Source: an uncultured Pseudomonadales bacterium (GTDB lineage: Bacteria; Pseudomonadota; Gammaproteobacteria; Pseudomonadales; Porticoccaceae). From it: a stretch of DNA of 42,735 nucleotides. Within the stretch, counting starts at the first letter, position 1. Each line of letters opens with the position of its first letter. The notes under the pieces are model-generated. The model saw nothing but the letters and a program-made list of their open reading frames with translations. It made no database searches and was not told the DNA's origin. Location of the stretch: assembly GCA_905478975.1 (NCBI GenBank), contig CAJQKW010000029.1, positions 1 through 42,735 on the forward strand. The letters run 5' to 3'. Positions 283-37,871 of the stretch are shown here, one piece after another. Made by a program: the position numbers and the translations under genes.

Positions 283-304
283 AATCCAAGCTGTTTGTTT
301 TTTG
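283..304. promoter_or_regulatory. Putative operator S1 of the shared 22-bp motif
   Basis: AATCCAAG - CTGTTT - GTTTTTTG matches the AAACmAAC-N6-GTTTkTTT pattern found before several other units in this window, with a degenerate left half. Its TTGTTT (295-300) stands 16 bases before a TATATT box (317-322), so the site would overlap the -35 element of the ferredoxin promoter. A repressor bound here should block that promoter. The binding protein is inferred to be the TetR protein encoded at 37044-37751. Confidence 0.5.
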
Positions 305-322
305 CTTTAAAGGTTGTATATT
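295..322 (+). promoter_or_regulatory. Probable sigma70-type promoter of the ferredoxin gene
   Basis: TTGTTT (295-300) and TATATT (317-322) are spaced by 16 bases, about 58 bases upstream of the ferredoxin start codon. The same arrangement (TTGTTT, 16 bases, TATAGT) recurs before the gene at 927. Confidence 0.5.
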
Positions 323-379
323 GCTCGCCAATCCGTTCAGCTGCGCGCTGATTAACCGACCTGTCACTGGAGTTCACCT

Positions 380-700
380 ATGCCAAAAGTTACTTATATT
401 GAGGCCAATGGCCAAAGCCACGAAGTTGATCTAGACGCCGGTGTTAGTCTAATGCAGGGAGCTGTAGATAATATGATTGAGGGTATTGTTGCCGAGTGCG
501 GCGGTTCCTGCAGCTGCGCCACATGCCACTGTTATATAGACCAGCAATGGCTAGACAAGCTTGAGCCAGCCACTGAGATGGAAAATGACCTGTTGGAATG
601 TGTTACCGAGCCCAAAGACAACAGCCGACTATCCTGCCAGATAGTGATCAGCGATGACCTCAACGGTCTGGTAGTGCATCTGCCCGAGTCACAATTCTAA
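380..700 (+). CDS. Putidaredoxin-like [2Fe-2S] ferredoxin
   Basis: This 106-residue adrenodoxin/putidaredoxin-type ferredoxin would carry single electrons to a cytochrome P450 in the cytoplasm. The cluster ligands are C40, C46, C49 and C86 (C-x5-C-x2-C-x36-C). From memory, the sequence tracks Pseudomonas putida putidaredoxin along its whole length, including the GVSLMQ, CGGSxSCATCH, LECVT and NSRLxCQI stretches. The acidic residue that contacts P450cam (Asp38 of putidaredoxin) is kept as E39, and the critical C-terminal Trp is replaced by a terminal Phe. Two extra cysteines, C44 and C51, flank the ligands. The start is set by TGGAG seven bases upstream. The likely partner is the CYP101-like P450 at 19123-20322. 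No ferredoxin reductase gene is visible in the window. Confidence 0.93.
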   Translation: MPKVTYIEANGQSHEVDLDAGVSLMQGAVDNMIEGIVAECGGSCSCATCHCYIDQQWLDKLEPATEMENDLLECVTEPKDNSRLSCQIVISDDLNGLVVHLPESQF

Positions 701-737
701 AGCCCTCTGCGCTTTTTTTACCCTAGTTTTCGCTCTG

Positions 738-765
738 GCATGGTTACTATCTAACCATGCTTTTT
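738..765 (+). terminator. Rho-independent terminator after the ferredoxin
   Basis: A perfect 9-bp stem, GCATGGTTA (738-746) with TAACCATGC (752-760), has a 5-nt loop and is followed by TTTTT. It separates the ferredoxin from the nine-gene operon starting at 927. A weaker AAAGC/GCTTT hairpin with a T run lies just before it at 699-717. Confidence 0.88.
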
Positions 766-846
766 GGCAGCATTTGTCACGGTTGCTCCAATATTCTGCT
801 CAGAGCTGAACCGCCACACAGCCAAGAAATCAACGATTCACCTTGA

Positions 847-868
847 AAACCATCACGTTTGTTTTTTT
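847..868. promoter_or_regulatory. Putative operator S2 of the shared 22-bp motif
   Basis: AAACCATC - ACGTTT - GTTTTTTT fits the pattern AAACmAAC-N6-GTTTkTTT. TTGTTT (859-864) lies 16 bases before TATAGT (881-886), so the site covers the presumed -35 region of the nine-gene operon. An extra AAACAAAC half-site stands at 904-911, between the promoter and the start codon, in inverted orientation to the GTTTGTTT at 857-864. Confidence 0.55.
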
Positions 869-886
869 ATCGAAAAGATGTATAGT
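859..886 (+). promoter_or_regulatory. Probable promoter of the nine-gene operon
   Basis: TTGTTT (859-864), a 16-base spacer and TATAGT (881-886) stand 40 bases upstream of the first start codon. The spacing and hexamers match those before the ferredoxin gene. Confidence 0.5.
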
Positions 887-926
887 TTACTCAGCCGATA
901 ACTAAACAAACAAAAGGTTTATCTCC

Positions 927-1898
927 ATGCCATATCAAGAGGAATTTCTACTCAGAGCCTACCGCTCGATGAGAACCATTCGCGAATTCGAAGAGCGCTG
1001 TATTGCCGAGTTTATGGGCGGCAATGTGCCCGGTTTTGTGCACGCCTCAAACGGTCAGGAAGCCATTGCGGTCGCTGCCTGCATAGATCTTAGCGACAGC
1101 GATATTATTGGTAGTACCCACCGTGGCCACGGCCACTGTATTGCCAAAGGCTGTGATATTGGCGGCATGATGAAAGAAATTATGGGTCGCTCCACCGGCC
1201 TCTGCAAGGGCAAAGGCGGCTCCATGCATATTGCCGATATTGATAAAGGCATGCTCGGTGCCAACGCCATTGTTGGTGGCGGACCGCCGCTGGTCAATGG
1301 CGCAGCACTGGCCTCGAAAACCCTGGGTACTAAAAATGTCGCCATATCATTTAACGGCGATGGCAGTGCCAACCAGGGCACGGCCATGGAAGCTATGAAT
1401 ATGGCGGTTGTGCTGCAGTTACCCCATGTGTTTATTTACGAAAACAACGGCTACGCAGAGGGCACAGCCGCCAACTATGGGCTGGGCTGCGACAGTTTGA
1501 CCGATCGCAATGCCGGCTTTGGCATGCCAGCAGAATGTGTCGATGGCAACGACTTCTTTGCCACCTACGAGGCTATCAAGGTGGCCACTCAGCGAGCACG
1601 GGATGGTGGTGGCCCCACCTCTATTGAGGCCAAATGCGTGCGCTTTGACGGCCACTTTATTGGCGACCCGCAGCTGTACCGCGGCAAAGATGAGGTCAAA
1701 AATGCCCGCAAGAATCAGGATTGCCTGAAAATCTTCCGTGATCGGGTAATCAAAGAAGGCTGGCTAAAAGCCGCCGCCATGAACGCGATCGATAAAGAAA
1801 TCAAAGCCGAAATAGAACAGGCGGTTGCAGATGGCCTTGCGGCTCCGCACCCAGATCCCGCCACGGACCTAATGTCCGACGTCTACTGCTCATACTAA
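927..1898 (+). CDS. acoA: 2-oxoacid/acetoin dehydrogenase E1 component, alpha subunit
   Basis: This is the thiamine diphosphate-dependent alpha subunit (323 aa) of an E1 decarboxylase. The TPP/Mg motif GDGSAN lies at residues 144-149, with EAMNMA after it and YENNGYAEGT at 171-180. The THRGHGH segment (64-70) and the GKGGSMHIAD loop (95-104) are typical of the acetoin/pyruvate E1 alpha group. Together with the E1 beta, E2 and E3 genes that follow directly it would form a complete complex that cleaves an acyloin, a diketone or a 2-oxoacid to acyl-CoA. The acetoin-dehydrogenase type is preferred because both E1 subunits resemble AcoA and AcoB. The natural substrate may be a pathway intermediate rather than acetoin. 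AAAGG precedes the start by nine bases. Confidence 0.88.
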   Translation: MPYQEEFLLRAYRSMRTIREFEERCIAEFMGGNVPGFVHASNGQEAIAVAACIDLSDSDIIGSTHRGHGHCIAKGCDIGGMMKEIMGRSTGLCKGKGGSMHIADIDKGMLGANAIVGGGPPLVNGAALASKTLGTKNVAISFNGDGSANQGTAMEAMNMAVVLQLPHVFIYENNGYAEGTAANYGLGCDSLTDRNAGFGMPAECVDGNDFFATYEAIKVATQRARDGGGPTSIEAKCVRFDGHFIGDPQLYRGKDEVKNARKNQDCLKIFRDRVIKEGWLKAAAMNAIDKEIKAEIEQAVADGLAAPHPDPATDLMSDVYCSY

Positions 1899-1908
1899 GG
1901 TGACCCAA

Positions 1909-2955
1909 ATGACTAATAATTCTAATAACGCACAGGTCACAGGTAAGACTTCAATCAAGACTTACCGCGACGCCATCAATGATGCCATTCGTGAAGAGAT
2001 GCGCCGCGACCCCACAGTGATAGTTTTGGGTGAAGAAGTCTCCGGCGGCGCCGGTTGTGACGGCGAAGATGATGCCTACGGCGGTGTTTTTGGTGTGACC
2101 AAAGGGCTAATGCCCGAGTTTGGTCGCGAGCGGGTAATTGACACCCCCATCTCAGAAGCGGCCATTATTGGTGCTGCCGCAGGTGCTGCCAACAATGGTT
2201 TGCGACCTATTGCCGAGCTGATGTTCTTCGACTTTATCGGCGTGTCCTTTGACCAGATATTTAATCAGGCCGCCAAGTTCCGCTATATGTTTGGCGGCAA
2301 GTCAAAAACCCCCATGGTTATTCGTGGCACAGTGGGCGGCGGTTGGCGCGCCGGCGCACAGCACTCCAGCATGCTGCACTCTATTGTTACCCATATTGCC
2401 GGCCTTAAAGTGGTTATGCCCAGTAATGCCTATGATGCTAAGGGGCTTATGGTGCAGGCGATCCGCGATGACGACCCGGTAATCTTCCTCGAGCATAAAG
2501 TCATGTACGACAACGAGTGCGAAGTGCCAGACGAGCAATATGCCATTCCCTTTGGTGAAGCGGCATTCCCCCGCCAGGGCAAAGACGTCACCATAGTGGC
2601 TATCTCCAATATGGTCACCCATGCGATTGCCGCTGCTGACCTATTGGCCCAAGAGGGTATCAGCTGCGATGTGATTGACCCACGCACTGTGTCGCCAATG
2701 GACGATGAAGCCATTCTTGAAAGTGTCGAGGTCACAGGCCGACTGGTGGTAGTTGATGAGGGTAACCCACGCTGTGGTCTGGCCTCAGATATCGCCGGTA
2801 TTGTTGCCGAAAAAGGTTTTCACAGCCTCAGAGCACCTATTCGCACTGTCACCGCACCTCATACGCCGGTGCCTTTTGCGCCTGAATTAGAAGACGCCTA
2901 TCTGCCGAATGTAGACAAAGTGCTTGCCGCTGTTCGGGAAGTGTTGGGAGCCTAA
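1909..2955 (+). CDS. acoB: 2-oxoacid/acetoin dehydrogenase E1 component, beta subunit
   Basis: This 348-residue E1 beta subunit has a transketolase-like pyrimidine-binding domain in its first half and a C-terminal transketolase domain. Recognisable blocks are DTPISEAAIIGAAAG, ELMFFDFIGVSFDQI, QAAKFRYMFGG, the substrate-channel QHSSMLHS, and VVVDEGNPRCGLASDIA near the C-terminus. From memory this is closer to acetoin dehydrogenase AcoB than to housekeeping PDH beta. The start at ATG 1909 is chosen because AAGGTGA ends five bases upstream. A GTG at 1900 in the same frame would lie inside that ribosome-binding site. The gene begins ten bases after the E1 alpha stop and ends two bases before the E2 start, so translation is probably coupled. 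Confidence 0.9.
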   Translation: MTNNSNNAQVTGKTSIKTYRDAINDAIREEMRRDPTVIVLGEEVSGGAGCDGEDDAYGGVFGVTKGLMPEFGRERVIDTPISEAAIIGAAAGAANNGLRPIAELMFFDFIGVSFDQIFNQAAKFRYMFGGKSKTPMVIRGTVGGGWRAGAQHSSMLHSIVTHIAGLKVVMPSNAYDAKGLMVQAIRDDDPVIFLEHKVMYDNECEVPDEQYAIPFGEAAFPRQGKDVTIVAISNMVTHAIAAADLLAQEGISCDVIDPRTVSPMDDEAILESVEVTGRLVVVDEGNPRCGLASDIAGIVAEKGFHSLRAPIRTVTAPHTPVPFAPELEDAYLPNVDKVLAAVREVLGA

Positions 2956-2957
2956 TT

Positions 2958-4421
2958 ATGAGTAATGAAATTAAGTCGATCCAGATGCCCAAGTGGGGCA
3001 TGGAAATGTCCGAGGGCGAAATTAACGCCTGGCATGTTGAAATAGGTGCTCAAATCAATGCTGAAGATGATCTGGTGGATGTCGAAACCAGCAAAATCAT
3101 CAATACAGTCACTGCGGCTCACAGCGGCGTGCTGCGAGCCATAGTTGCCCAGCCCGGCGAAACCCACGATGTGGGTGCCCTTCTTGGGGTCCTAGCCTCG
3201 GCCGAGACCAGCGAAGCAGAGATTCAGGCATTTATTGATAGCCATAAAACTGCCAGCGCAGATGCAGTGGCTCCGGAGCCTGTGGCAGCAGAACCTGTAG
3301 CAGCCCCAGTGGCAGCACCTGCACCCCAGGCCAGTAATAATGCAGCCCTGGCTGAGGGTGGCGATGATAGTCATATTGCCGCTTCCCCTGTGGCTCGCAG
3401 ACTGGCCGCAGACTATGGTGTTAACCTCAACAATATTACCGGCACAGGCCGCCATGGGCGTATATCCAAGGCAGACCTAGAGACAGCGGTGACTGCCGCC
3501 GGTGGTCAGCTAATAGGCACCAACTCCGCAACTCCAGCAGGCCCAACTCAGCATGCTGATGATAGCCAGGTCAAGGCCACACCAGTAGCCCGGCGCATGG
3601 CTCAAGAGCTGGGCATTAACCTCCATGAGTGCCGTGTCAGTGGCGAGCGAGGCCGTGTTTGCAAGGCCGATGTTGAAGCCGCTGCAGCGCTAAAAAATAA
3701 ACTGCCCGCTCAATCAGTAGCCGTAAGCGCGGCGCCAAGCAGCTCAGAGGCACAGGTAATCAGTGGTATGCGCAAGACTATTGCCGGTCGCCTGCAGTCA
3801 TCCAAGCAGACAGCCCCCCATTATCGGGTACAGATTGATGCCGAGCTAGATCATCTACTCGCCACCCGCAAGCAGATTAACGATGCCAATAGCGAGACCA
3901 AAATTTCGGTCAATGACTTTATTATTAAAGCCTGTGCCAGCGCGCTGATCAGAGTGCCGGCGGTTAATGTGCAGTTTGATGGTGAGCAGGTAAGCTACTT
4001 TAATAATGCAGATATCAGTGTGGCTGTGGCCATCAAAGACGGCCTGATCACACCTATTATTTCAGGTGCCAATAACAAAGGACTTGAGAGCATTTCTCAT
4101 GAAATGCGCGATCTGTCCACCAGGGCAAAACTCAATCGCCTAAAACCTGAAGAATTTCAGGGCGGCAGCTTCTGCATCTCTAATCTGGGCATGTATGGCA
4201 TTAAGCAGTTCGATGCCATTATCAACCCGCCACAGGGCGCTATTCTGGCCGTAGGTGCCGGGGAGCAGCGCGCGGTAGTTAAAAATGGCCAGCTGGCTGT
4301 TGCCACAGTGGTCAGCCTGACTCTCTCCAGCGACCATCGCATTATTGATGGTGCTGTGGCCGCTGAGTTTATGGCTGTGCTCAAAGGCTTCCTCGAGCAA
4401 CCGGCAACCATGCTGGTCTAG
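2958..4421 (+). CDS. acoC: Dihydrolipoamide acyltransferase E2 with two peripheral subunit-binding domains
   Basis: This is the 487-residue E2 core of the complex. Residues 5-82 form one lipoyl domain with the lipoylated lysine at K46 (DVETSK). An Ala/Pro/Val-rich linker follows at about 100-130. There are then two peripheral subunit-binding domains in tandem, about 142-177 (ASPVARRLA ... GRHGRISKADL) and 207-243 (ATPVARRMA ... GERGRVCKADV). The acyltransferase domain starts near 265 and carries the active-site DHRIIDG at 459-465. One lipoyl plus two subunit-binding domains is unusual, since E2 chains normally vary lipoyl domains and keep one binding domain. Unlike the AcoC of some pseudomonads, this is a true acyltransferase and not an alpha/beta hydrolase fusion. 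Confidence 0.92.
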   Translation: MSNEIKSIQMPKWGMEMSEGEINAWHVEIGAQINAEDDLVDVETSKIINTVTAAHSGVLRAIVAQPGETHDVGALLGVLASAETSEAEIQAFIDSHKTASADAVAPEPVAAEPVAAPVAAPAPQASNNAALAEGGDDSHIAASPVARRLAADYGVNLNNITGTGRHGRISKADLETAVTAAGGQLIGTNSATPAGPTQHADDSQVKATPVARRMAQELGINLHECRVSGERGRVCKADVEAAAALKNKLPAQSVAVSAAPSSSEAQVISGMRKTIAGRLQSSKQTAPHYRVQIDAELDHLLATRKQINDANSETKISVNDFIIKACASALIRVPAVNVQFDGEQVSYFNNADISVAVAIKDGLITPIISGANNKGLESISHEMRDLSTRAKLNRLKPEEFQGGSFCISNLGMYGIKQFDAIINPPQGAILAVGAGEQRAVVKNGQLAVATVVSLTLSSDHRIIDGAVAAEFMAVLKGFLEQPATMLV

Positions 4422-4435
4422 GAGTTTAATTGAGT

Positions 4436-5827
4436 ATGCAGCATTATGACCTAATGGTAGTGGGCGGCGGCCCTGGCGGCTATGTGGCGGCTATTCGCGC
4501 CGCCCAGTTAGGCTTTAAAACCGCACTGGTTGAAAAGCAGCACCTGGGCGGTGTCTGCTTAAACTGGGGCTGCATACCCACCAAGGCACTGCTGCGCGGT
4601 GCAGATATTGCACAGACTATTAAAGAGGCAGAACATTTTGGTTTTGCTATCGACAACCTGAGCTTTGATATCAACAAGCTAGTGCAGCACAGCCGCTCCG
4701 TAGCCAGCAAACTTAGCGGTGGCGTTGCCTATCTAATGAAGAAAAATAATATTAAGGTAATAGACGGCACTGCCACCGTAGCCGACAAATGCCGGCTCGA
4801 TGTCAGTTATGACGGCTCAGTCACCCAATACAGAGCCGACCATATTATTCTTGCCACCGGTGGCCGGGCCCGCAATCTACCCAATATCAAAATTGACGGC
4901 GATCTAGTCTGGGGCGCCCGAGAAGCCATGACCCCCAGCCGCCTGCCCGGCAGCCTGCTGGTCATTGGCGGCGGAGCCATAGGGGTGGAATTTGCCAGCC
5001 TCTACAATGATCTGGGCTGCGATGTCACCCTGGTGGAAGCAGCAGAGCGCATAGTACCGGCAGAAGATGCCGAGATTTCCCAGCTGGCAGAAAAATCCTT
5101 TAAACAGCGTGGCATCAACGTCTTAACCAATACATTGGTCGATGAGGTTGAGGGTGCAGGCGAACAGTCACTGGCATCGATTGCAGGACCAGATGGCAAG
5201 CAACAGCAGAAATTTGACCAGGTTATTCTGGCCGTGGGTATTAGAGGCAATATTGAGGGCCTGGGTCTTGAGAACCTGGGCGTGACCACTGAAAACAGTT
5301 TTATAGTTGCCGATCCATTTGGCAAAACCAATCTGGCTGGCCTCTACGCCATTGGCGATGTGGCCGGCGCTCCGTGGCTTGCCCATAAAGCCAGCCACGA
5401 AGCGGTTATCTGTGTAGAGAATATTGCCGGCGTCCAGGGGGTCAAACCACTGGATAAACGCCGCGTCCCCGGCTGCACCTACTGCCGCCCGCAAATTGCC
5501 AGTATTGGCCTCACAGAAGCCCAGGCTAAAGCCGCGGGGCACAGCACCAATACAGGCCGCTTTAATATCGGCGCCAATGGCAAAGCCCTGGCAATTAATG
5601 AAGCCGAGGGGCTGGTTAAAACCGTCTTTGATAGCAATACAGGTGAGTTACTGGGTGCCCATATGATAGGCCCGGAAGTCACAGAGCAGATTCAGGGCTT
5701 TGGTATTGCCCAGCAGCTTGAGGCCACAGAACAGGAGCTGTCCCATACCATTTTTGCCCATCCAACAGTATCTGAAAGCATGCACGAGTCTGTTCTCGAC
5801 AGCATTGGTCTTTCGCTTCATCAATAG
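4436..5827 (+). CDS. lpdA: Dihydrolipoamide dehydrogenase E3
   Basis: This FAD flavoenzyme reoxidises the lipoyl group of E2 and reduces NAD+. The FAD-binding GGGPGG motif is at the N-terminus and the redox-active disulfide is C41/C46 in GGVCLNWGCIP. The NAD-binding motif GGGAIGVEFA lies mid-protein. The FAD site YAIGDV and the catalytic HPTVSE dyad (H442, E447) lie in the C-terminal half. Length is 463 residues from ATG 4436, normal for the family. A TTG at 4430 in the same frame sits at better spacing (five bases) from the AGGAG at 4420-4424, so a two-residue longer start is possible. It completes the four-gene complex and may be specific to it rather than the general cellular E3. Confidence 0.93.
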   Translation: MQHYDLMVVGGGPGGYVAAIRAAQLGFKTALVEKQHLGGVCLNWGCIPTKALLRGADIAQTIKEAEHFGFAIDNLSFDINKLVQHSRSVASKLSGGVAYLMKKNNIKVIDGTATVADKCRLDVSYDGSVTQYRADHIILATGGRARNLPNIKIDGDLVWGAREAMTPSRLPGSLLVIGGGAIGVEFASLYNDLGCDVTLVEAAERIVPAEDAEISQLAEKSFKQRGINVLTNTLVDEVEGAGEQSLASIAGPDGKQQQKFDQVILAVGIRGNIEGLGLENLGVTTENSFIVADPFGKTNLAGLYAIGDVAGAPWLAHKASHEAVICVENIAGVQGVKPLDKRRVPGCTYCRPQIASIGLTEAQAKAAGHSTNTGRFNIGANGKALAINEAEGLVKTVFDSNTGELLGAHMIGPEVTEQIQGFGIAQQLEATEQELSHTIFAHPTVSESMHESVLDSIGLSLHQ

Positions 5828-5843
5828 AGTTTAGAGATAAGCC

Positions 5844-6275
5844 ATGAGCAACCAAGTTCCACTCCAAGAAGGCCTATTTACCTGGCCCTCAAGCCAACCC
5901 CAGCTACTGGGTAGCAGATGCAGCCAATGCGCAGAGGCCGCCTTTCCCGCGCAGCCCGACTGTCGCAGCTGTGGCTCGCGGGACACCCAGATTATTGAAC
6001 TGGGAGACCGCGGCATATTATGGACCTGGACCATTCAGACCTTTATGCCCAAAGAGCCCTATCTTAGCGATGAAACCCCAGAGACATTTCGCCCCTACGG
6101 CGTAGCCTATGTGGAAATGCCCGGCGGCGTGCGGGTTGAAGCCCGCCTCCAGGCCAACAGCCCGGAACAGCTTAAGATTGGTATGCCCATGCAACTGGAT
6201 ATTGTGCCCTTTCGCACAGATGAAAACGGCGAGCAAAAAATGACCTTTAGTTTTAGTGCAGCGGAGAAAGCATAG
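5844..6275 (+). CDS. DUF35 Zn-ribbon/OB-fold protein, partner of the thiolase-like protein
   Basis: This 143-residue protein has an N-terminal rubredoxin-like zinc ribbon (RCSQC and DCRSC, two CxxC knuckles) followed by an OB-fold region with the typical YGVAYVEMPGGVRVEARL strand pattern. DUF35 proteins bind acyl-CoA and pair with thiolase-superfamily enzymes. In steroid side-chain degradation they act with the Ltp2 retro-aldolase. The thiolase-like gene begins two bases after this stop, which supports a complex of the two. It may deliver or position the CoA thioester. Confidence 0.88.
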   Translation: MSNQVPLQEGLFTWPSSQPQLLGSRCSQCAEAAFPAQPDCRSCGSRDTQIIELGDRGILWTWTIQTFMPKEPYLSDETPETFRPYGVAYVEMPGGVRVEARLQANSPEQLKIGMPMQLDIVPFRTDENGEQKMTFSFSAAEKA

Positions 6276-6277
6276 TT

Positions 6278-7420: not shown

Positions 7421-7447
7421 TTAAAATAATAAGCAGGAGTAAATGCG

Positions 7448-29544: not shown

Positions 29545-29590
29545 GTCTATTTACCCCTGCTGTTATATTGTTATTATTCAGCGGCAGCGG

Positions 29591-30607
29591 TCAGATCTTA
29601 ACCAGCTGCTTACCAAAATTTTGCCCCGAGAAAAGGCCAGCCAGTGCTTGCGGGCACTGCTCTATACCCTCAAGGATATATTCTTTAACCAAAATCTTGC
29701 CCTCATCAACCCATTGCATTAACTGCTCGGTGGCCTCTGGGTAACGATCCACATGGTCGAGCACAATAAAGCCCTCCATATGGCAGCGGCGAATCACCAG
29801 CTGCATATAATTTTTTGGGCCCGGCGGCAACTCTGCCACCTGATAGCCACTGGAGATACCGCCACAGAGCACAATGCGCCCGTAGTTCGCCATATTGACC
29901 AGCACCTGGTCGAGAATCTCGCCACCAACATTATCAAAGAAAATATCGATCGAGTTTTTGCAGAGCTCTTGAAGGCGCAACTCCACCGACTCAGACTTAT
30001 AATCAATTACCGCGTCATAACCCAGCTCGTCCAGCAGCCACTGACACTTGGCCTGCCCGCCGGCAATACCTATAACCCGGCAACCCATTAGCTTGGCAAT
30101 TTGACCCACGGTAGAGCCTGTGGCACCAGCTGCGCCAGAAATGACAATGGTATCGCCGGCCTTTGGTTTGCCTATATCCAGCAGGCCAAAATAGGCAGTA
30201 AGCCCTGTTAAGCCATAGATATGCAGCGGGTAAGAAATAGGTACGGACTCAATAATTTTTTCTACTGGAAACAGCCCAGAGCCATCACTAATAGCGTATT
30301 CCTGCCAGCCAAAACCACCCTGAACCCGGTCGCCGATCTGGTAATCTGCATGCTTGCTGGCAATCACTTCACCGGCGGCAACTGAGCGCATCACCTCACC
30401 AATGGCCACTGGCGGTACATAGCTGCGCACATCGTTGAGCCAGCCACGCTGAGCTGGCTCAAAGGATAGATACTGGGTTTTGACCAAAAACTCACCATCG
30501 GCAAGCTCGCCGACAGTTTCGGTTTCAAAATTAAAGTGCTGCTCAGCTACGGTGGTTTGCGGCCGTGACTTTAATGTCCATTTGCGGTTGGTCAATGCTG
30601 CTGTCAT
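29591..30607 (-). CDS. Zinc-independent MDR family NADP-dependent oxidoreductase (4)
   Basis: This fourth PTGR/CurA-type reductase (338 aa) has SFEPAQRGWL, GAAGATGSTVGQIAK and FFDNVGGEILDQVL. The ATG overlaps the stop of the DUF3604 gene by four bases (ATGA), so translation is coupled. It probably reduces an enone intermediate or oxidises an alcohol. It is a clear paralogue of the copies at 9184, 11412 and 14322. The four copies lie in four different transcription units. Confidence 0.9.
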   Translation of the reverse strand: MTAALTNRKWTLKSRPQTTVAEQHFNFETETVGELADGEFLVKTQYLSFEPAQRGWLNDVRSYVPPVAIGEVMRSVAAGEVIASKHADYQIGDRVQGGFGWQEYAISDGSGLFPVEKIIESVPISYPLHIYGLTGLTAYFGLLDIGKPKAGDTIVISGAAGATGSTVGQIAKLMGCRVIGIAGGQAKCQWLLDELGYDAVIDYKSESVELRLQELCKNSIDIFFDNVGGEILDQVLVNMANYGRIVLCGGISSGYQVAELPPGPKNYMQLVIRRCHMEGFIVLDHVDRYPEATEQLMQWVDEGKILVKEYILEGIEQCPQALAGLFSGQNFGKQLVKI

Positions 30608-32472
30608 GGGGTGTACCAGATAGGCGAGGAGTAGGCGCGGTCCTGAATAATATCTGGCGCACGGGGGTCAATTACCGCACCGAAATAGGCTCGGTCATAG
30701 GCGGTCCAGCGCGGCGTAGGAATCTGAATAACCCTTGCATAATAGAATGCACGCTGTTCAGGGTCGAAGTCTGGGTCAGTCCAAACGGCAGTTAACTCAG
30801 GGTCGCCTATGCTATTGCTATAGGTGGTATTTGCCAGGTCTACGCTGTTGCCCACCGGCGGAATCTTGCCTAACCAATTAGCACTGCGGTTATCTGACAG
30901 GGCTACATCAAAGATGTCTTCATGGGTTTGGCCATTAGCATCCAACCAGCCTTTGATGATTTGCACGCGGTCCAGGTTGGCGCCGTCCGGGTCTCTGGCC
31001 GCAGCCACCATAAAGCTAGGTGCACTGCCGGCTTTGCTGCGCGTTAGGTCGCCGCCCATAGGCACGCCCTTCTGGTAGCCAATGCTGGCAAAGTTAGCCT
31101 GCAACAGGTCGCTGTGGGTAAACTCCCAGCCACCAAAAAAGCGCAGCTGGATACGGGTGCCCGAGGTGGCATAGACCTCACGGCGCTTAATCGCCTGAAA
31201 CAGCGACTCGCGAGTATTTTCCGGTGCCCACACCGCCGCCAGCCCCGAAGACACCAGCTGCCAAATCTTTTGCAGTTGATCGGCCATTCGCTTTTCGGTG
31301 CGGTCTACAGAAGGCTCATCATGGGCAAACTTACCAAAAAAGTTATCCTCATAGGTGGTAGCCATACCAGTGTGGGAGTCGGTGCTGCCAATTAGGCCAA
31401 ACTTAAACGGGTTAGCACCCAGATTGGCCTCATGGCGCAGGCCCTCTTTCAGTGCCGAGCGGCTGTATTCGTACTGCAGCATCTGCGGCTGTTTGGGCGT
31501 ATCCAGAGTAATATTGCCCTCATCCCATGTCTCAAAGTTCGCAAACTCATCACTGGGTGAAAGAAACGGATGGGCCTCGCCATCGCCTTTGATCTGGGTG
31601 GTTTCATACACCGGCTCCCAGCGGGCACGTTTACGTGCATAGGCCTCGTCAAGTGGCAGCCCATTTTCCCGATTAGGCGAAAACATGCGTCCATTGCTGA
31701 CATTGCCATTGTGGGCAATGGCAATCACCTCGCCTCCGGTTTCCTTTTCATAGCGAGCAAGGGCATCCCAGAGATCTTCTGGGTCATTGCTGTGCTGTGC
31801 TGAGAACGGCGTATGCTGCGAGGCTATATCTGCACCATCTTTGTAAATCACCACCCGGTGCAAGTTGTCGCCAGTGATCATAGAGGTCCATTCATAACCC
31901 ACAAAGGCGGTAAACAGCCCCGGCTCGTTGTATTTGTCCGCCACTGCCGCAGCCTCTGACCAGATTGATCTGCGCAAACTTTCAGGCGTCAAATACTCAG
32001 GTTCGCTGGTTTGAATAGCATCAGAGAAAGCCAGTGCCAAGCCCATCATATCGCCCTGCTTCATCATCTGCTGCCATTCCATGCCCATCTTCCACTCCTT
32101 TAGACGGGGGTCATTGGCCTCCAACTGAGCATAGATACCTAGGTACTCCGCATGGTCGGTCACTGCCAAAAAGTCCAGGGGACGGCGCAGTCGCGCCGGC
32201 ATACCATTATCTGCTTCCACAGTCTGTCCGCGGGCAAACATAAAAGCCTGATCTTTAGTCAGGCGGGTCTGCAGAATATAGGCATCTGCAGATAGCTGTG
32301 AATGCAGATGCAAATCACCCCAGTAGAGATTGGTTAGACCCTCTCTGACCGGTGCTGAATAATCCAACTTTTGCTCTGCCAGCGTTGCTTCTTGGTCATT
32401 GGCATGTAGTAAATCACTCATTGCCAGCACCATCACCACGGTTGTGGCGCTACTGATAAGCTTGTACATCAT
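30604..32472 (-). CDS. Exported DUF3604 protein, putative metallohydrolase-like
   Basis: This 622-residue DUF3604 protein has a probable signal peptide (MMYKLISSATTVVMVLAMSD, cleavage near LHA at 21-24). The N-terminal part has PHP-like metal-binding features: WGDLHLHSQLSADAY with H55 and H57, then LAVTDHAEYLG with D106, H107 and E109. Later segments such as VIAIAHNGN, GSTDSHTG and REVYATSGTRIQLRF are typical of the family. The reaction of DUF3604 proteins is not established to my knowledge. It is probably periplasmic or outer-membrane attached, so it could act on the substrate before uptake. AGGGG four bases before the ATG supports the start. Confidence 0.88.
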   Translation of the reverse strand: MMYKLISSATTVVMVLAMSDLLHANDQEATLAEQKLDYSAPVREGLTNLYWGDLHLHSQLSADAYILQTRLTKDQAFMFARGQTVEADNGMPARLRRPLDFLAVTDHAEYLGIYAQLEANDPRLKEWKMGMEWQQMMKQGDMMGLALAFSDAIQTSEPEYLTPESLRRSIWSEAAAVADKYNEPGLFTAFVGYEWTSMITGDNLHRVVIYKDGADIASQHTPFSAQHSNDPEDLWDALARYEKETGGEVIAIAHNGNVSNGRMFSPNRENGLPLDEAYARKRARWEPVYETTQIKGDGEAHPFLSPSDEFANFETWDEGNITLDTPKQPQMLQYEYSRSALKEGLRHEANLGANPFKFGLIGSTDSHTGMATTYEDNFFGKFAHDEPSVDRTEKRMADQLQKIWQLVSSGLAAVWAPENTRESLFQAIKRREVYATSGTRIQLRFFGGWEFTHSDLLQANFASIGYQKGVPMGGDLTRSKAGSAPSFMVAAARDPDGANLDRVQIIKGWLDANGQTHEDIFDVALSDNRSANWLGKIPPVGNSVDLANTTYSNSIGDPELTAVWTDPDFDPEQRAFYYARVIQIPTPRWTAYDRAYFGAVIDPRAPDIIQDRAYSSPIWYTP

Positions 32473-32494
32473 TGTGCCCCTGTTTTAATCGTTA

Positions 32495-33016
32495 TTATTT
32501 ATAGGCAGAGAGGGGGGTAACAATCTCAATCAGATTGCCGTTGTTATCCCGAATAAACAGCAGCCGCACACCGGCTGCATCAAAGTTGGTAGGCGGCAGC
32601 TCAAGCTCTACACCGCGACTGACCAGTTCGGCCGCCACCGCATCCACATCGGCGCTGTTAAAGGCCATATGCACATAGCCGCGATCAGACATAGCGGTAA
32701 ATATATCAGGAGCAACCGACTCTTTCTGAAAAGCCTGTTTGGTACCCACCACCTCAATCATAAAACCATTGGCGGCGATATAGCCCACATCTACATCTGG
32801 GTAACCTTCTATATCCCATTCCCGCACTACCTCAAAGCCAAGTACTCTGTTATACCAGTCTAGAGTGGCTCTGTAGTCGTCAGTGGAGATCATAATATGG
32901 TCGGCGCGCATCTGGGCCAACGGGTTGACTTTAGGTGCGCTATCTTCGGCGACAGCTAGGCCAGCAAAAGAGACAAGGCAACCAATAACATATCCCGCAA
33001 CAGGGGTTTTAAGCAT
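32495..33016 (-). CDS. Exported VOC/glyoxalase-fold protein
   Basis: This is a vicinal oxygen chelate protein of about 173 residues with a signal peptide (LKTPVAGYVIGCLVSFAGLA, cleavage at AVA/ED). The four metal ligands expected in the fold are visible: the His of ADHIMIS, the Glu of FMIEVVG, the His of YVHMAF and the Glu of NLIEIV. It resembles glyoxalase I and related isomerases or dioxygenases. Export is unusual for this family. ATG 33016 is favoured because GAGG stands eight bases upstream. ATG 33022 and GTG 33025 sit on or next to that site. The gene overlaps or abuts the Rieske stop, and its neighbour downstream is the exported DUF3604 protein. Confidence 0.85.
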   Translation of the reverse strand: MLKTPVAGYVIGCLVSFAGLAVAEDSAPKVNPLAQMRADHIMISTDDYRATLDWYNRVLGFEVVREWDIEGYPDVDVGYIAANGFMIEVVGTKQAFQKESVAPDIFTAMSDRGYVHMAFNSADVDAVAAELVSRGVELELPPTNFDAAGVRLLFIRDNNGNLIEIVTPLSAYK

Positions 33017-33021
33017 CCGCA

Positions 33022-34365
33022 TCACCTCAGCTGGTCTGAATTTACAATATCTGTGGCAACATAATCATTGAGCAGCTCATGGAAGCGCTGCACCCGCTTC
33101 TCCTGATGCGTCAAAATACAGCCCTTAAAGCCGCGGGAATTGAGGCCCTGCTGCTGGCTGGTACCAATACTCAGATCCTGGTCGGCAACAAAGCCCACCG
33201 ACTGGCCATCGCCATACACCGAGTGGCGATTCTCCGCCCATTCCAGAGGCATGGGGCCTATGGGCGTAATCACCTCTTTCATACCCTCAACCGGCGGCGC
33301 CAGCACCCAGTGGTGAAAGACACATTTTTGTGGGTCTGTAGGGTGCGGCTCGGTGCGCAGAATCTGGCACTGTTCCGGCGACATGGTGATAGTTAGGTTG
33401 GGGAACAGAGTGCAGTGAAAATAGTCCACTAGCTGCTGGTCGCTCATATTCTGATAATTGGTGTAACCAATTTCTGGGCCCATTTGACGCTTGGCAGCCA
33501 CTATGGCCTCGCGAATATCGCCGGTGTGGCCATTGAAGTCGGCCGGGTCCAGGCCCCAGGCACGGGCCACATCGTCGAGAGGCGCAGGCACCTCACCGGT
33601 TTCATGCTGCGGGTTTCTGGTACTGGCCTGATGGCCCTTCATCCACATAGAGTTGTGACCGCTCTCGTACATCTCAAACAAGGTGTCTGACAGGCCATCG
33701 TTAATAAAGGTGGAGAGCTCTGGATGGATGGTGGGCAAATGATAACTCTCGTTAAAGTTATCGCGGATAATCTTCCAGTTAAAATCTGCATCAGCAGTCA
33801 GGTACATGACCCTGATCCAGTTATCCAAGCCATAATCTTTAAGCCGCTCAGGTAATGGCTCTAGCCATTCCAGCAGGGGTTTGGCGTCTTCGTCCATGCA
33901 GTAAAAGATAAAGGGGCCCCAGATTTCGCAACGCACTTGGGTAAGTGTTACCTTGCCGCAGGGATTACCGTCGGGGAAATCATCGGGATCCTGCACATTC
34001 ACTAGCACGCCATCTGGAGCAAACTGCCAGCCATGGTAGCCACAGGTGATTCTGTCGCTGCCACCTATATCCCCCAGCACCAGGCGGTTGCCGCGATGAG
34101 GGCATGCATTGTAGAACGCTTTAATGGAGCCATCTGCCTGGCGCACCATAATCACTGACTCGGCGCCCAGGTTGTGGCGAACATAGTCGCCCTCCTGCTC
34201 CAGTTCTGCGACCATACCGCCCAGGTGCCAAACCTTAGGCCACAGTTTCTGATTTTCGCGCTCCATAAACTCTGCAGAAATGTACCGGTCTGCAGTAATG
34301 TTGTCTCCCCTTACCGGCAGATCAAAACCTTTGGCATAGCGAGACGTTTCAGCTTGAGAGCTCAT
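33022..34365 (-). CDS. Rieske non-heme iron oxygenase, alpha subunit (3)
   Basis: This 447-residue oxygenase alpha subunit has Rieske ligands C88, H90, C108 and H111 (C-x-H-x17-C-x2-H; CPHRGN and CGYHGWQF). The catalytic iron motif is NFNESYHLPTIHPE, with two His. This form resembles alpha-only oxygenases of the phenylpropionate dioxygenase-like group. It has no partner ferredoxin next to it. GAGGTG upstream sets the start. It is fourth in the eight-gene operon, after three SDRs, and is translationally coupled to the VOC gene. Confidence 0.91.
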   Translation of the reverse strand: MSSQAETSRYAKGFDLPVRGDNITADRYISAEFMERENQKLWPKVWHLGGMVAELEQEGDYVRHNLGAESVIMVRQADGSIKAFYNACPHRGNRLVLGDIGGSDRITCGYHGWQFAPDGVLVNVQDPDDFPDGNPCGKVTLTQVRCEIWGPFIFYCMDEDAKPLLEWLEPLPERLKDYGLDNWIRVMYLTADADFNWKIIRDNFNESYHLPTIHPELSTFINDGLSDTLFEMYESGHNSMWMKGHQASTRNPQHETGEVPAPLDDVARAWGLDPADFNGHTGDIREAIVAAKRQMGPEIGYTNYQNMSDQQLVDYFHCTLFPNLTITMSPEQCQILRTEPHPTDPQKCVFHHWVLAPPVEGMKEVITPIGPMPLEWAENRHSVYGDGQSVGFVADQDLSIGTSQQQGLNSRGFKGCILTHQEKRVQRFHELLNDYVATDIVNSDQLR

Positions 34366-34432
34366 AGCGCACCTCTATTATTATATTTAGCAAAACCAGG
34401 GTCAGTAACAGGGTTATCGGCCTGGCACAGCC

Positions 34433-35194
34433 TTACTTGGCCATCAGGCCGCCATCTACCACCAGTTCTGTACCTGTCACATAGTTCGCTTCATCTGAGG
34501 CGAGGAACAACACGCAGTTGGCCACCTCCTCTGGAAAGCCCATGCGACCCCAGGGAACACTCTCGCCTATCTTTACAAACTCATCATAGTTATCGCGACG
34601 GGCATCGTTTTGAATATTGGTATCAATCAAACCGGGATGAACCGAGTTGCAGCGAATACCATCGGCGGCATGTTCCATGGCAATGGTCTTGGCCAGGTTT
34701 TGCACGCCAGCTTTAGCAATACCATACACAGATACACCGGGAAGGCCGCGCAGACCAGCAACCGATGACATATTGACAATAGAGCCGCCACCGCTGGCAA
34801 TCATCGCCGGCAGCGCCTTGCGACAGCCATAGAAGACACTGCGAATATTGACATCCATCTGCAGGTCATAGTCTGCGGTGGTGTATTCGCTGATAGGCCG
34901 CAACAGGGCAATACCTGCATTGTTGACCAGAATATCCAGGCTGCCAAAACGCTCAACCGTAGCATCTATCACTTGCTGCCAGCGGTCTTCGTCGACCACA
35001 TTCTGCTCCATGGCCAACACCTCGGCGCCAAGCGCCGTTAGGTTTTTCTCAGCTACCGCCAAACCTTGCATATCAATATCTGTAATCACCAGCTTGGCGC
35101 CCTCTTCGGCAAAGCGAACGGCACTGGCATAACCCAGCCCTGGATTTGACGCTGCACCAGTGATAATAGCGACTTTATTTAACAATCTAGACAT
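34433..35194 (-). CDS. Short-chain dehydrogenase/reductase (5)
   Basis: This 253-residue SDR has the cofactor motif TGAASNPGLG, slightly extended, with ITDID (acidic, NAD-preferring), NNAGIALL, and catalytic VYGIAK with NMSSVAG. The C-terminus GTELVVDGG is typical. It is the third gene of the eight-gene operon. SDR genes 5, 6 and 7 lie in a row with spacers of about 35 bases and share about the same length, which suggests tandem duplication followed by divergence. AAGGA upstream sets the start. Confidence 0.9.
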   Translation of the reverse strand: MSRLLNKVAIITGAASNPGLGYASAVRFAEEGAKLVITDIDMQGLAVAEKNLTALGAEVLAMEQNVVDEDRWQQVIDATVERFGSLDILVNNAGIALLRPISEYTTADYDLQMDVNIRSVFYGCRKALPAMIASGGGSIVNMSSVAGLRGLPGVSVYGIAKAGVQNLAKTIAMEHAADGIRCNSVHPGLIDTNIQNDARRDNYDEFVKIGESVPWGRMGFPEEVANCVLFLASDEANYVTGTELVVDGGLMAK

Positions 35195-35229
35195 AGCAGT
35201 ATTCCTTATTATTTTTTTAAAATTTTAGT

Positions 35230-35979
35230 TTAAATTGCATTCCAGCCGCCATCGACCTCTAGCAGGCTTCCAGTGCTAAAAGACGATAGGTCCGAGGCCA
35301 AATACATCACACCATTGGCCACTTCCTGCGGTGTGCCAAGACGATTAATGGCATGTTTGGTGGCCAGCACCGACAGGTCTTCAACCAGGCTAACAACCAA
35401 TGGTGTAGCCACATTGCCCGGACAGATAGCGTTAATGCGAATATCCCGATTGGCATATTCCACTGCCACGGTGCGGGTAAGCCCAGCAACGGCAAATTTG
35501 CTGGTGACATAGGGCGAGGCATTGGGGTAGGTATTGCGGCTAGTGGCAGAGGCCATATTAACAATGCGCCCGCCCCCCTGTTTGAGCATCTGGCGAATCT
35601 CAGCCTGCATGCACAGCCACACCCCCTTAAGATTAACCCCCATTACACGGTCAAATTCTGCTTCACCAACCTCGTGAAATTCCTGCAATGGGGTGGCGGT
35701 GCCTGCATTGTTGACAGCAATATCCAGCCGGCCAAAACGCGCCACTACCGCCTCCAGCATGGCGTTGACATCTGCTGAGTTACTGGCATCGTTAATCAGC
35801 CCCAGCACATCGGCACCTGCCTCTTGCAGGTCGGCCACCGCCTTGTCCAGCGCTTGCTGGGAAATATCTGTAATTGCCAGCTTAGCGCCAGCCTCGGCAA
35901 ATGCCATGGCACAGGCATAGCCCAGGCCTGCACCAGCGCCGGTAATCAGTACAACTTTATGGTTAAAATTAAAGGTCAT
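35230..35979 (-). CDS. Short-chain dehydrogenase/reductase (6)
   Basis: This 249-residue classical SDR has TGAGAGLG, ITDIS (NAD-preferring acidic residue), NNAGTATP, catalytic YVTSK with NMASATS, and a terminal GSLLEVDGGW. It is the second gene of the eight-gene operon. Its sequence differs enough from its two neighbours to suggest a separate substrate or step, such as sequential oxidation of ring hydroxyls. Confidence 0.9.
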   Translation of the reverse strand: MTFNFNHKVVLITGAGAGLGYACAMAFAEAGAKLAITDISQQALDKAVADLQEAGADVLGLINDASNSADVNAMLEAVVARFGRLDIAVNNAGTATPLQEFHEVGEAEFDRVMGVNLKGVWLCMQAEIRQMLKQGGGRIVNMASATSRNTYPNASPYVTSKFAVAGLTRTVAVEYANRDIRINAICPGNVATPLVVSLVEDLSVLATKHAINRLGTPQEVANGVMYLASDLSSFSTGSLLEVDGGWNAI

Positions 35980-36013
35980 AACCTGTGTTCTTATTCTAAT
36001 TATTGGTGGTTAA

Positions 36014-36775
36014 TCAGGCGGCGTTGCCGCCGTCGACCATATACACACTGCCGGTGCAGTAGCTGCTGTCATCGCTGCCTAGAAATACCATCATCTTGGC
36101 AATTTCATCTGGCTGCCCATAGCGGCCCAGCGGAGTAACAGCCTCAACCATAGCACGAAAATCTGGTGCGCCGGCCTCGGCAAAACCCTCCTCAATAGAG
36201 GTAATCATGCGTGTTTCCACGGCACCGGGATTGACAGTATTGACCCGGATATTATGGGCGCCGCACTCCAGAGCCGCGCAGCGCATAAGGCCAATGGCCG
36301 CATGTTTGCTGGCGTTGTAGCAGGCAGTATTGGGTGAACCCTTAACACCGGCACCAGAAGAAGTGATAATAATGCTGCCACCGCCCTGGTCGCGCATTAG
36401 CGGAATCACATAGTGCAGGCCCAGCCACACCCCGCGCACATTAACAGCAAACACCCTGTCCAGATTGCTGACATCAGTGCTGGCAATATCGCCAATATCA
36501 CCCTCAACACCAGCATTGGCCACAAACACATCAATGCGCCCAAAAGTGGCCACACAGGCATCGACCATAGCCTTGACCTGCTGTTCTTGAGTGACATCAA
36601 CCGCCATGGCGGCACAGCGATCAGCGCCCAGCTCATCGGCCAGTGCCTGAGTCACCTCAGTGTCCATATCGGCCAGCATAACCTTAGCGCCCTCGGCAAC
36701 AAACCGTCGTACCGCCGCCACGCCTATACCACCGCCAGCACCCGTAATAAGTACAACCTTTTGTTCCAGCTTCAT
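36014..36775 (-). CDS. Short-chain dehydrogenase/reductase (7), first gene of the operon
   Basis: This 253-residue classical SDR has TGAGGGIG, LADMD after the second strand, NAGVEG, catalytic YNASK with ITSSGAG, NPGAVETRM, and a C-terminal GSVYMVDGG. AAGGGT upstream sets the start. Directly upstream (36805-36830) is the most symmetrical copy of the shared operator. The gene therefore appears to be the first of an eight-gene regulated transcript. Confidence 0.9.
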   Translation of the reverse strand: MKLEQKVVLITGAGGGIGVAAVRRFVAEGAKVMLADMDTEVTQALADELGADRCAAMAVDVTQEQQVKAMVDACVATFGRIDVFVANAGVEGDIGDIASTDVSNLDRVFAVNVRGVWLGLHYVIPLMRDQGGGSIIITSSGAGVKGSPNTACYNASKHAAIGLMRCAALECGAHNIRVNTVNPGAVETRMITSIEEGFAEAGAPDFRAMVEAVTPLGRYGQPDEIAKMMVFLGSDDSSYCTGSVYMVDGGNAA

Positions 36776-36804
36776 CGAATTACCCTTTTTTTATTATTTT
36801 GCTA

Positions 36805-36830
36805 GAAAACAGACATGCATGTTTCTTTTC
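36805..36830. promoter_or_regulatory. Putative operator S6, near-perfect 26-bp palindrome
   Basis: The core is AAACAGAC - ATGCAT - GTTTCTTT (36807-36828), flanked by matching GA and TC bases. Of the 26 positions, 22 match their own reverse complement. It lies 30 bases upstream of the first SDR of the eight-gene operon and fits the shared motif and its 6-base centre. The rest of the 268-base spacer 36776-37043 shows a small CAACGC/GCGTTG hairpin at 36902-36916 and no gene. Confidence 0.6.
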
Positions 36831-37043
36831 TTGAGATCATATTATCAATCGGAATCTGCTGCAACACCTTTGTCTTCGAGAATTAGCCGCGCACAGGGTC
36901 GCAACGCCTAGCGTTGTAGAGGAGAAAATTATTGCTGGAAATAACGGGCTGAGGTCGGCTCGGTTACTGCACTGGCCTGGGTTACAAAACACAGGCAGCC
37001 CCAGCTTGAGACCTGGCGCTGCCCTGCTGACGGATTAGCCCGC

Positions 37044-37751
37044 TTAGTCGATAAGATTGGCTTCTTGGTAAATATCGTAGAGGATAGCCGTCAGGTAGGT
37101 CATAACACGCTTGGCACGGGCCTTTTTGCGCACTGACATATGGCTTAGAGCCATGCCTTTCATCAGGAACTGCACCATGTCATGGGCGCCTTCAAGTCGC
37201 GACAGGTTTTGCCAGTGGGGGAACACCGCCTTAGCGGTATCCAGAAACTGTTTCTCAAAATCTTTTTCCACCGGCTCAATAACCTGGCGCAGCTCTGCAT
37301 CAGTGCGCGACGCCGCCAGCAACTCCTGATAGGCCAGAAACGAGGGCAGATTGACATACTGCCAGGCCGCCTCAACCGACTCGCGAATCACCTGGTGGGT
37401 CAGGGTACGCTGAGGGTCATCAATATCGGACATCAACTCGCGATACTCCTGCAGGCGCAACATATGCAGATAATCGACAACAGCGCGCATAACTGTCATG
37501 CGCGACGGAAAATGATGCATCATGGCGCCCCGCGAGACACCGGCGTAATTTGCAATCAAGGCAGTGGTAGTATTGGCATAACCCAGCTCAAGTAGACATT
37601 GAATAGTAGCCTCTAGTATCGACCAGCGCGTCATTGCGCTTTTTTCAGCCTGCCAGCCTTTTTCGTTGCGCTGAGGTCGCTTCTTTTCTGCAGTGGTGGC
37701 TGCAGTTGAGTGCGGTGCGTCCTGGTTGCTAATCGATTTCTCCATACCCAT
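37044..37751 (-). CDS. TetR/AcrR family transcriptional regulator
   Basis: This 235-residue TetR family regulator has a long basic N-terminal extension (about 40 residues). The helix-turn-helix domain runs from about 42 to 88, including TTTALIANYAGVSRGAMMHHF, followed by a helical ligand-binding domain. The ligand could be the substrate or a CoA ester of the pathway. It is the only regulator in the window and is flanked by catabolic genes, so it is the best candidate to bind the shared 22-bp motif. Two AAACCAAC half-sites and an unrelated perfect palindrome lie upstream, consistent with autoregulation. AGGAAA before ATG 37751 supports the start. Confidence 0.92.
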   Translation of the reverse strand: MGMEKSISNQDAPHSTAATTAEKKRPQRNEKGWQAEKSAMTRWSILEATIQCLLELGYANTTTALIANYAGVSRGAMMHHFPSRMTVMRAVVDYLHMLRLQEYRELMSDIDDPQRTLTHQVIRESVEAAWQYVNLPSFLAYQELLAASRTDAELRQVIEPVEKDFEKQFLDTAKAVFPHWQNLSRLEGAHDMVQFLMKGMALSHMSVRKKARAKRVMTYLTAILYDIYQEANLID

Positions 37752-37771
37752 TCGTTTCCTATTTGCGGTGT

Positions 37772-37799
37772 AATATATTCCAGCTTTTCAAAAAACCAA
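37772..37799 (-). promoter_or_regulatory. Probable tetR promoter
   Basis: On the minus strand TTGGTT (37799-37794) and TATATT (37777-37772) are spaced by 16 bases. The -35 hexamer lies inside an AAACCAAC half-site (37793-37800). Confidence 0.45.
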
Positions 37800-37804
37800 C
37801 ATTG

Positions 37805-37823
37805 GATGGTAATTTTTACCATC
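37805..37823. promoter_or_regulatory. Perfect 19-bp palindrome upstream of tetR
   Basis: GATGGTAA - TTT - TTACCATC is a perfect inverted repeat with a 3-base centre, 54 bases upstream of the tetR start and next to its probable -35 box. No second copy was seen in the window. It could be an operator of the TetR protein itself or of another regulator. Confidence 0.55.
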
Positions 37824-37849
37824 GGCCAAGCGGTATTATAACTAGTTTA

Positions 37850-37871
37850 AAACCAACTTGCCTGTTTTACC
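37850..37871. promoter_or_regulatory. Putative operator S5 of the shared 22-bp motif
   Basis: AAACCAAC - TTGCCT - GTTTTACC has a perfect left half and a partial right half. It lies between the ACAD stop and the tetR gene, upstream of tetR. Confidence 0.5.

Follow-up and report, generated by a model that had tools for sequence, protein, structure and literature searches.

The window analysed here, a single 42.7-kb contig (G000:C29) from a 2.24-Mb assembly with a completeness of 79.9%, comes from a marine bacterium of the SAR92 clade and holds one gene for a TetR-family regulator, tetR (37044–37751). We conclude that, very probably, one catabolic regulon is under local repression by this TetR protein, which would act through a 22-bp palindrome, AAACAAACA-N4-TGTTTGTTT. 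Because the palindrome heads each gene group, and because relatives retain palindromes together with one repressor gene, the cluster reads as a 42-kb block for uptake and breakdown that is probably induced as a single unit by some substrate. Local TetR regulons of catabolic genes are an ordinary type of system, but the operator set found here is unusually complete and spread wide.

An earlier note on this DNA had described the repeat as AAACMAAC-N6-GTTTKTTT. With up to three mismatches, this form has 22 matches in the window (registers and strands each counted separately) against 0.65 expected, and none of 100 dinucleotide shuffles reached 22. Alignment of the sites shows that the symmetry runs further inward, giving the 22-bp palindrome, in which C8 and G15 are invariant across a 30-row set made of 15 sites and their reverse complements. 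A symmetrized matrix built from nine sites returns ten matches of at least 15 bits (Table 1). Nine of these trained the matrix, the match at 40206 alone lying outside the training set, so that leave-one-out scoring is the fair test. Scored in this way, eight of the nine sites stand above the level of shuffled windows (0.000–0.200 expected each, 60 shuffles); the ninth, at 37850, reaches 7.6 bits with 3.5 expected by chance and does not. The palindrome of the earlier note is thereby borne out, but its list of sites needed correction in register, strength and membership. Its site at 283–304 is the +4 register of a better one at 279–300, and two that it took as weak are strong, 12518–12540 being better read as 12515–12536 (24.1 bits) and 15428–15453 containing the site 15428–15449 (24.9 bits). 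Conversely, 37850–37871, listed as strong, is weak, and the site at 26116–26137, in front of the acyl-coenzyme A (CoA) ligase gene, had been missed.

Shifted registers are not peculiar to the site at 279: in 40 of 70 distinct sites, another register scores at least 10 bits when moved by +4 or −4, whereas independent columns would predict 33%. This would suit a refinement of the single-dimer model in which overlapping sites are bound cooperatively by two TetR dimers, for which we take QacR as the comparison. We regard the refinement as tentative, and on the whole doubtful, since the sites have a common ancestry and the half-site, AAAC-AAAC, already repeats a tetramer in tandem, which accounts for much of the register effect.

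All ten sites are intergenic in a window that is 92.1% coding. Counting with the likelier start codons 12434 and 15338 for two genes, nine of the 23 gaps of at least 30 bp contain a site, the gap between the ligase and the TonB receptor containing two. Nine of the 12 gaps longer than 100 bp have sites, each heading a catabolic unit; of the three that lack one, two are convergent and the third separates lysS from prfB. The idea that the whole region forms one regulon is supported for the catabolic units, but lysS and prfB are not part of it. Of the 12 start codons listed, 10 have a site centre at a distance of 40 to 169 bp. The remaining two, 12497 and 15437, fall 28 bp and 1.5 bp from a site centre and are probably too far upstream.

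The sites bear on how TetR would act. That four of them overlap or follow −35/−10 boxes, as had been noted, is only fairly well supported: four promoter-like matches do occur at operators on the right strand, but the total of such matches hardly exceeds the chance level (17 against 16.5 in 1–16700; 26 against 18.4 in 24200–42000). Two sites, 15428–15449 and 40206–40227, adjoin promoter-like sequences (15453–15481 on the plus strand and 40203–40174 on the minus strand) just upstream of the −35 box, positions from which TetR could recruit polymerase as an activator or dual regulator. Such a role is unlikely. The site at 24323–24344 abuts the promoter-like sequence 24371–24343 (minus strand) and that at 26329–26350 lies downstream of 26283–26311 (plus strand); being on or downstream of promoter-like boxes, these sites fit blocking, and repression is the mode of most TetR proteins studied so far (PMC3511530, in excerpt). 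We therefore infer repression instead of activation.

Relatives keep the palindrome, as its reading as an operator had implied. A matrix trained solely on window sites finds 64 separate sites of at least 14 bits in 23 orthologue loci (L053–L075; 390,867 bases), against 3.2 in dinucleotide shuffles. The set of loci excludes L052, whose TetR is identical to that of the window, and retains L054 from the same bin. Fifty-eight of the sites lie outside open reading frames (ORFs), though ORFs of at least 100 residues cover 85.6% of this DNA, and four of the six inside ORFs are within about 110 bp of a listed ORF start. The site at 12515–12536 is identical in genomes G222 and G159, and counterparts of the site at 40206–40227 are present in L036, L040, L056 and L057. 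Operators are also found where gene order has changed. In Aestuariicella, Zhongshania and Pseudomaricurvus, tetR is divergent to an E1–thiolase operon, the counterpart of 927–10194, with an operator between them; in HTCC2080 and Luminiphilus the order differs again. In all five, operators sit in the new promoter gaps. Several operators of HTCC2080 and Luminiphilus (L073, L074) have AAGCAAGC-like half-sites replacing AAACAAAC, and the recognition stretch of their TetR is the same.

The palindrome is also nearly confined to the cluster. We ran a sequence-only covariance model of 15 sites on seven whole genomes at E ≤ 10. The distinct places found inside the cluster were six of seven in the window's own genome, in G222 (one contig) and in G159, and three of three in G202; 21 of 24 places in these four SAR92-type genomes thus fall inside it. 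No place was found at E ≤ 10 in three genomes without a tetR match at E ≤ 1e-20, G281 of the same genus and G078 and G181 of the same family. The recall of the model is not independent, because only the best 150 candidates per genome were scored and training was partly on sites of the same genomes; the scarcity of matches elsewhere in the genomes is, unlike recall, independent. When a simpler pattern is allowed no more than one mismatch, six of its eight occurrences in the window's own genome fall inside the window. This placement suits a local TetR regulon, with operators at the adjoining catabolic promoters and hardly any in the rest of the genome.

The tetR gene and the cluster thiolase occur together. 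TetR matches at E ≤ 1e-20 were found in 22 of 293 sampled genomes of the order, the window's own included. In a selection of 15 genomes, searched at E ≤ 1e-60, this thiolase is present in seven of eight with tetR and in none of seven without, the tetR-bearing genome that lacks a match being G052, a fragmentary 75% genome. One thiolase match (G249:C2:15751–16887) has an internal TAA, which may reflect either gene damage or an error in sequencing.

Related TetR proteins are carried by plasmids of Alphaproteobacteria. We scanned nine alphaproteobacterial loci (seven from Sphingomonadales, one from Caulobacter and one from Ponticoccus) with a matrix refined on gammaproteobacterial sites, and seven have at least one site of at least 12 bits; five mononucleotide shuffles per locus give none. 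The richest is a plasmid of Sphingobium sp. RAC03, an algal-phycosphere isolate, with a GC content of 61% and a TetR 34.6% identical to that of the window. All seven of its sites of at least 12 bits lie between annotated genes and they precede Rieske, short-chain dehydrogenase/reductase (SDR), NTF2-like, TonB receptor and tetR genes; as in the window, the cluster includes E1/E2, OB-fold, thiolase, ThuA and ABM genes. Croceicoccus marinus has four sites, all intergenic. The surroundings of the tetR relatives in Caulobacter and Ponticoccus are unlike the window cluster.

This distribution bears on whether TetR binds the palindrome at all. If the repeats were just AT-rich promoter sequence or UP elements that no protein of their own binds, their A/T-richness and their position in promoter gaps would be accounted for, yet this is scarcely credible: they have two-fold symmetry with an invariant C8 and G15, four genomes have few model places outside the cluster and three others have none, and the motif recurs, free of shuffled counterparts, in alphaproteobacterial plasmid DNA of 61–68% GC. 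Alternatively, an unlinked regulator, either global or a TetR paralogue, might bind the palindrome, with the linked TetR acting on other targets. Two additional, weak TetR matches in the window's own genome (30% and 36% identity over the helix-turn-helix (HTH) part), the weak site of tetR itself and an excess of loose-pattern matches in a tetR-less genome, G107, lend this some colour. A global regulator should, however, have sites elsewhere, where the model finds few; the three scanned genomes without tetR, G107 not among them, have no places; sites of at least 10 bits lie upstream of tetR in most orthologue loci; and several plasmids pair sites with related tetR genes. We consider an unlinked regulator quite improbable, and infer that the linked TetR binds the palindrome.

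Several observations weigh against the TetR regulon proposed here. The window's own assembly is incomplete at 79.9%, and regulon targets may therefore be missing; the sites share descent and hence are not independent; and the covariance model, apart from its 150-candidate scoring and partly same-genome training, missed 12515, 26329, 37850 and 40206 at E ≤ 10. Two-mismatch patterns bring no clear excess in the window's own genome, with 62 and 70 matches where the reversed control has 73 and 71, and the tetR-less G107, of the same family and outside the covariance-model scan, has 36 loose-pattern matches against 19. We rejected these patterns as a genome-wide test; since they fail to separate sites from chance, stricter scoring is needed. 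A second two-mismatch pattern, run on 14 genomes and the source of the G107 count, gives 13 against 10 in the window's own genome, 36 against 19 in G222 and 30 against 11 in G280, with an excess in G262 too. Two of the nine plasmid loci (L077, L102) have no site of at least 12 bits, the single Ponticoccus site (L103) falls within the tetR gene, and two orthologue sites, close to the threshold and both from L066, fall well within ORFs. The remaining points concern the claim that TetR controls itself. Within about 350 bp upstream of tetR, sites reach at least 14 bits in 16 of the 23 orthologue loci and at least 10 bits in 20 (shuffled rates 0.5% and 3.3%), and 13 have a site of at least 14 bits within 600 bp downstream. 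In the window, however, the tetR site is the weak one at 37850, and upstream sites are poor (4.8–11.2 bits) in L053–L056, whose TetR proteins are 88–94% identical. Because its own site is weak there, autoregulation is doubtful in the window and its nearest relatives, a sublineage that may have only a feeble form of it or none any longer.

The protein itself fits the role of a putative operator binder. Residues 45–88 match TetR_N PF00440 with 42.2 bits against a cut-off of 24. An AlphaFold2 model has nine helices, with a predicted local distance difference test score of 85.9 and a predicted TM-score of 0.78, and so agrees with the family fold of roughly nine helices whose C-terminal domain serves ligand binding and dimerization. 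Residues S73-R74-G75-A76 and H80-F81 of the HTH are invariant in 33 aligned sequences (the window TetR and 32 homologues, 32–94% identical), as are Q34, K37 and R42 just ahead of it; the invariant HTH is in keeping with a conserved operator. An identical protein is found in the Porticoccaceae bin SI075_bin53, and close relatives include those of SAR92-clade strains H921, MOLA455 and HTCC2207. As had been noted, TetR is the only DNA-binding regulator among the 42 gene-like ORFs scanned in the window (Pfam for 40 of them and NCBIfam for LysS and PrfB; other, overlapping ORFs and a gene truncated at the left end lay outside the scan). A PDB sequence search gave no close relative of known function among the best 60 of 67 matches; the best is 2w53 (E 2.7e-9), which we take to be SmeT, followed by TtgR. 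Foldseek ranks EthR2 and Rv0078 highest, with 22–24% identity over the alignments and TM-scores near 0.5, and the titles of the 50 matches listed are mostly transcriptional regulators or repressors, many named TetR family. Proteins of the SmeT, TtgR, EthR2 and Rv0078 type thus share fold and HTH with the window TetR. The roles of EthR2 and Rv0078 are in efflux or drug activation, unlike this cluster.

In the mechanism we propose, a TetR dimer would recognize the palindrome in nine or ten promoter regions, which serve the TonB receptor (uptake), the acyl-CoA ligase (activation) and the P450, Rieske, dehydrogenase, thiolase and SDR steps. When the substrate is absent, TetR would block the cluster promoters; when it is present, a pathway intermediate would bind TetR and so release it. 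Our guess for this inducer is the CoA thioester made by the acyl-CoA ligase, because the ligase gene itself sits under an operator.

KstR2 of mycobacteria and rhodococci, like the window TetR in our reading, is a local TetR repressor; its palindrome stands at a small number of promoters in a neighbouring catabolic cluster and is conserved with that cluster, and its regulon was found by the same reasoning. That regulon has been confirmed by gel shifts and a deletion (PMC3068626, in excerpt). The KstR2 operator, AnCAAGnnCTTGnT, is 14 bp long whereas the window palindrome has 22 bp. We rejected it as a candidate, with 26 matches in the window at up to two mismatches against 21.2 expected and none overlapping the ten sites; no chain named KstR2 is among the best 60 of 67 PDB sequence matches of the window TetR. 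KstR, the TetR protein associated with cholesterol, is likewise a repressor of a large catabolic regulon, as proposed here for the window TetR. Its operator, which we take to be TNNAACNNGTTNNA, was also rejected (13 matches at up to one mismatch against 11.3 expected); one exact match, at 37837–37850, touches the weak tetR site. PheR of Sphingobium SHPJ-2 is not a relative, belonging to the IclR family and having a different motif (PMC13273656, in excerpt). Snowprint follows the same logic, an operator being deduced from conservation beside its regulator, but is a method and not a regulon (PMC10858194, in excerpt). The starts of abstracts in open-licence PubMed Central, among the matches listed, contained no description of this regulon.

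Table 1. Candidate operators, regulator and genes of the window. Scores are matrix bits; LOO, leave-one-out score; expected, number per shuffled window.
Feature	Coordinates	Strand	Context or basis
Candidate operator	279–300	+	Before [2Fe-2S] ferredoxin gene; 19.9 bits; LOO 15.5, 0.10 expected
Candidate operator	847–868	+	Before operon 927–10194; 26.8 bits; LOO 25.4
Candidate operator	12515–12536	−	Between divergent oxidoreductase-SDR-GFA (−) and SnoaL-ABM (+); 24.1 bits; LOO 21.4
Candidate operator	15428–15449	−	Between divergent oxidoreductase-hydrolase (−) and SnoaL-SRPBCC-ABM-Rieske oxygenase-ThuA (+); 24.9 bits; LOO 23.1
Candidate operator	24323–24344	+	Before operon of two acyl-CoA dehydrogenases, two SDRs and P450 (−); 27.1 bits; LOO 25.2
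Candidate operator	26116–26137	+	Before AMP-dependent acyl-CoA ligase (−); 21.4 bits; LOO 15.5, 0.067 expected
Candidate operator	26329–26350	+	Before TonB-dependent receptor; 19.7 bits; LOO 14.0, 0.20 expected
Candidate operator	36807–36828	+	Before SDR-SDR-SDR-Rieske-VOC-DUF3604-oxidoreductase-SDR operon (−); 24.3 bits; LOO 17.6, 0.017 expected
Weak operator-like site	37850–37871	+	Before tetR; 15.5 bits as training site; LOO 7.6, 3.5 expected
Candidate operator	40206–40227	+	Before enoyl-CoA hydratase-acyl-CoA dehydrogenase (−); 15.7 bits though not in training set
TetR-family regulator, putative operator binder	37044–37751	−	TetR_N PF00440, E 7e-11
[2Fe-2S] ferredoxin	380–700	+	Pfam Fer2
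Nine-gene operon: E1a-E1b-E2-E3-OB-thiolase-Rieske oxygenase-Rieske ferredoxin-oxidoreductase	927–10194	+	Pfam
GFA, SDR, oxidoreductase	10203–12497	−	Pfam; start likely 12434 or 12422, not 12497
SnoaL-like and ABM proteins	12599–13362	+	Pfam
Alpha/beta hydrolase, oxidoreductase	13367–15437	−	Pfam; start likely 15338 or 15329, not 15437
SnoaL, SRPBCC, ABM, Rieske oxygenase, ThuA	15607–18956	+	Pfam
CYP101-like P450, two SDRs, two acyl-CoA dehydrogenases	19123–24286	−	Pfam, PDB sequence matches
AMP-dependent acyl-CoA ligase	24416–26086	−	Pfam
TonB-dependent receptor	26440–28653	+	Pfam
SDR, oxidoreductase, DUF3604, VOC, Rieske oxygenase, three SDRs	28777–36775	−	Pfam
Acyl-CoA dehydrogenase, enoyl-CoA hydratase	37906–40108	−	Pfam

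The units headed by operators together encode three Rieske oxygenases, three acyl-CoA dehydrogenases and many SDRs, and the operon at 927–10194 combines a 2-oxoacid dehydrogenase complex with a ChsH2-like OB protein and a thiolase-like protein. The nearest PDB sequence matches of the P450 are CYP101J2 and P450cam (camphor 5-monooxygenase). One acyl-CoA dehydrogenase, the only one of the three compared, is closest to 4x28 and Tcur3483, presumably steroid enzymes, and the thiolase is closest to benzoylsuccinyl-CoA thiolase; the DUF3604 protein had no significant match in the PDB sequence search. Because of these resemblances, our guess is that the substrate is a cyclic terpenoid or steroid. A review of lignin-dimer pathways (PMC12997858, in excerpt) gave no match to the cluster.

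Several features of the window and its relatives stand apart. Relatives (L054, L056, L058) have an extra SDR gene between tetR and the counterpart of the SDR at 36014–36775, about 38% identical to the SDR at 28777–29544 and absent from 36829–37043 of the window, where the operator formerly before it now heads the remaining operon. Bin SI075_bin53 contains two tetR orthologues on different contigs (L052 and L054, 100% and 93% identical to that of the window), and probably mixes two strains or species. Among 17 TetR homologues elsewhere in the order (L019–L035; 32–43% identity), six (L027, L029, L030, L031, L033 and L035) have a site of at least about 18 bits within 300 bp upstream of tetR, and several others have variants such as AAACAGT..ACTGTTT farther off; these loci possibly form a wider regulator–operator group. 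By eye, the convergent ThuA/P450 gap (19010–19120) contains short direct repeats (GTATGACGTGTTGATTGTTATAG, about 29 bp apart), and the lysS/prfB gap (41850–42080) an imperfect inverted repeat around 41855–41965 with tandem GATGACTCGGGTAGAGCGCTC-like units.

SAR92 bacteria are abundant in coastal seawater (PMC10746254, in excerpt). We see about as much for as against the view that the cluster represents an undescribed pathway, common to marine gammaproteobacteria and sphingomonad plasmids and marked and controlled by one TetR–operator pair, whose substrate is cyclic and demands oxygenation and might be a terpenoid or sterol of algae. That its gammaproteobacterial side takes in SAR92, Halieaceae, Zhongshania and others is an evenly balanced proposition. 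So, in our judgement, is the notion that the match between TetR and operator has been kept across two classes (TetR about 33–41% identical) despite reshuffled genes; if it has, the operator could for that reason read out the pathway gene set in any genome. A well-defined operator and regulator would provide both the gene set of a 40-kb pathway and a handle on its substrate, as a compound that releases TetR from the operator would be the substrate or derived from it. The operator would also let the same regulon be located in further genomes, sphingomonad plasmids included.

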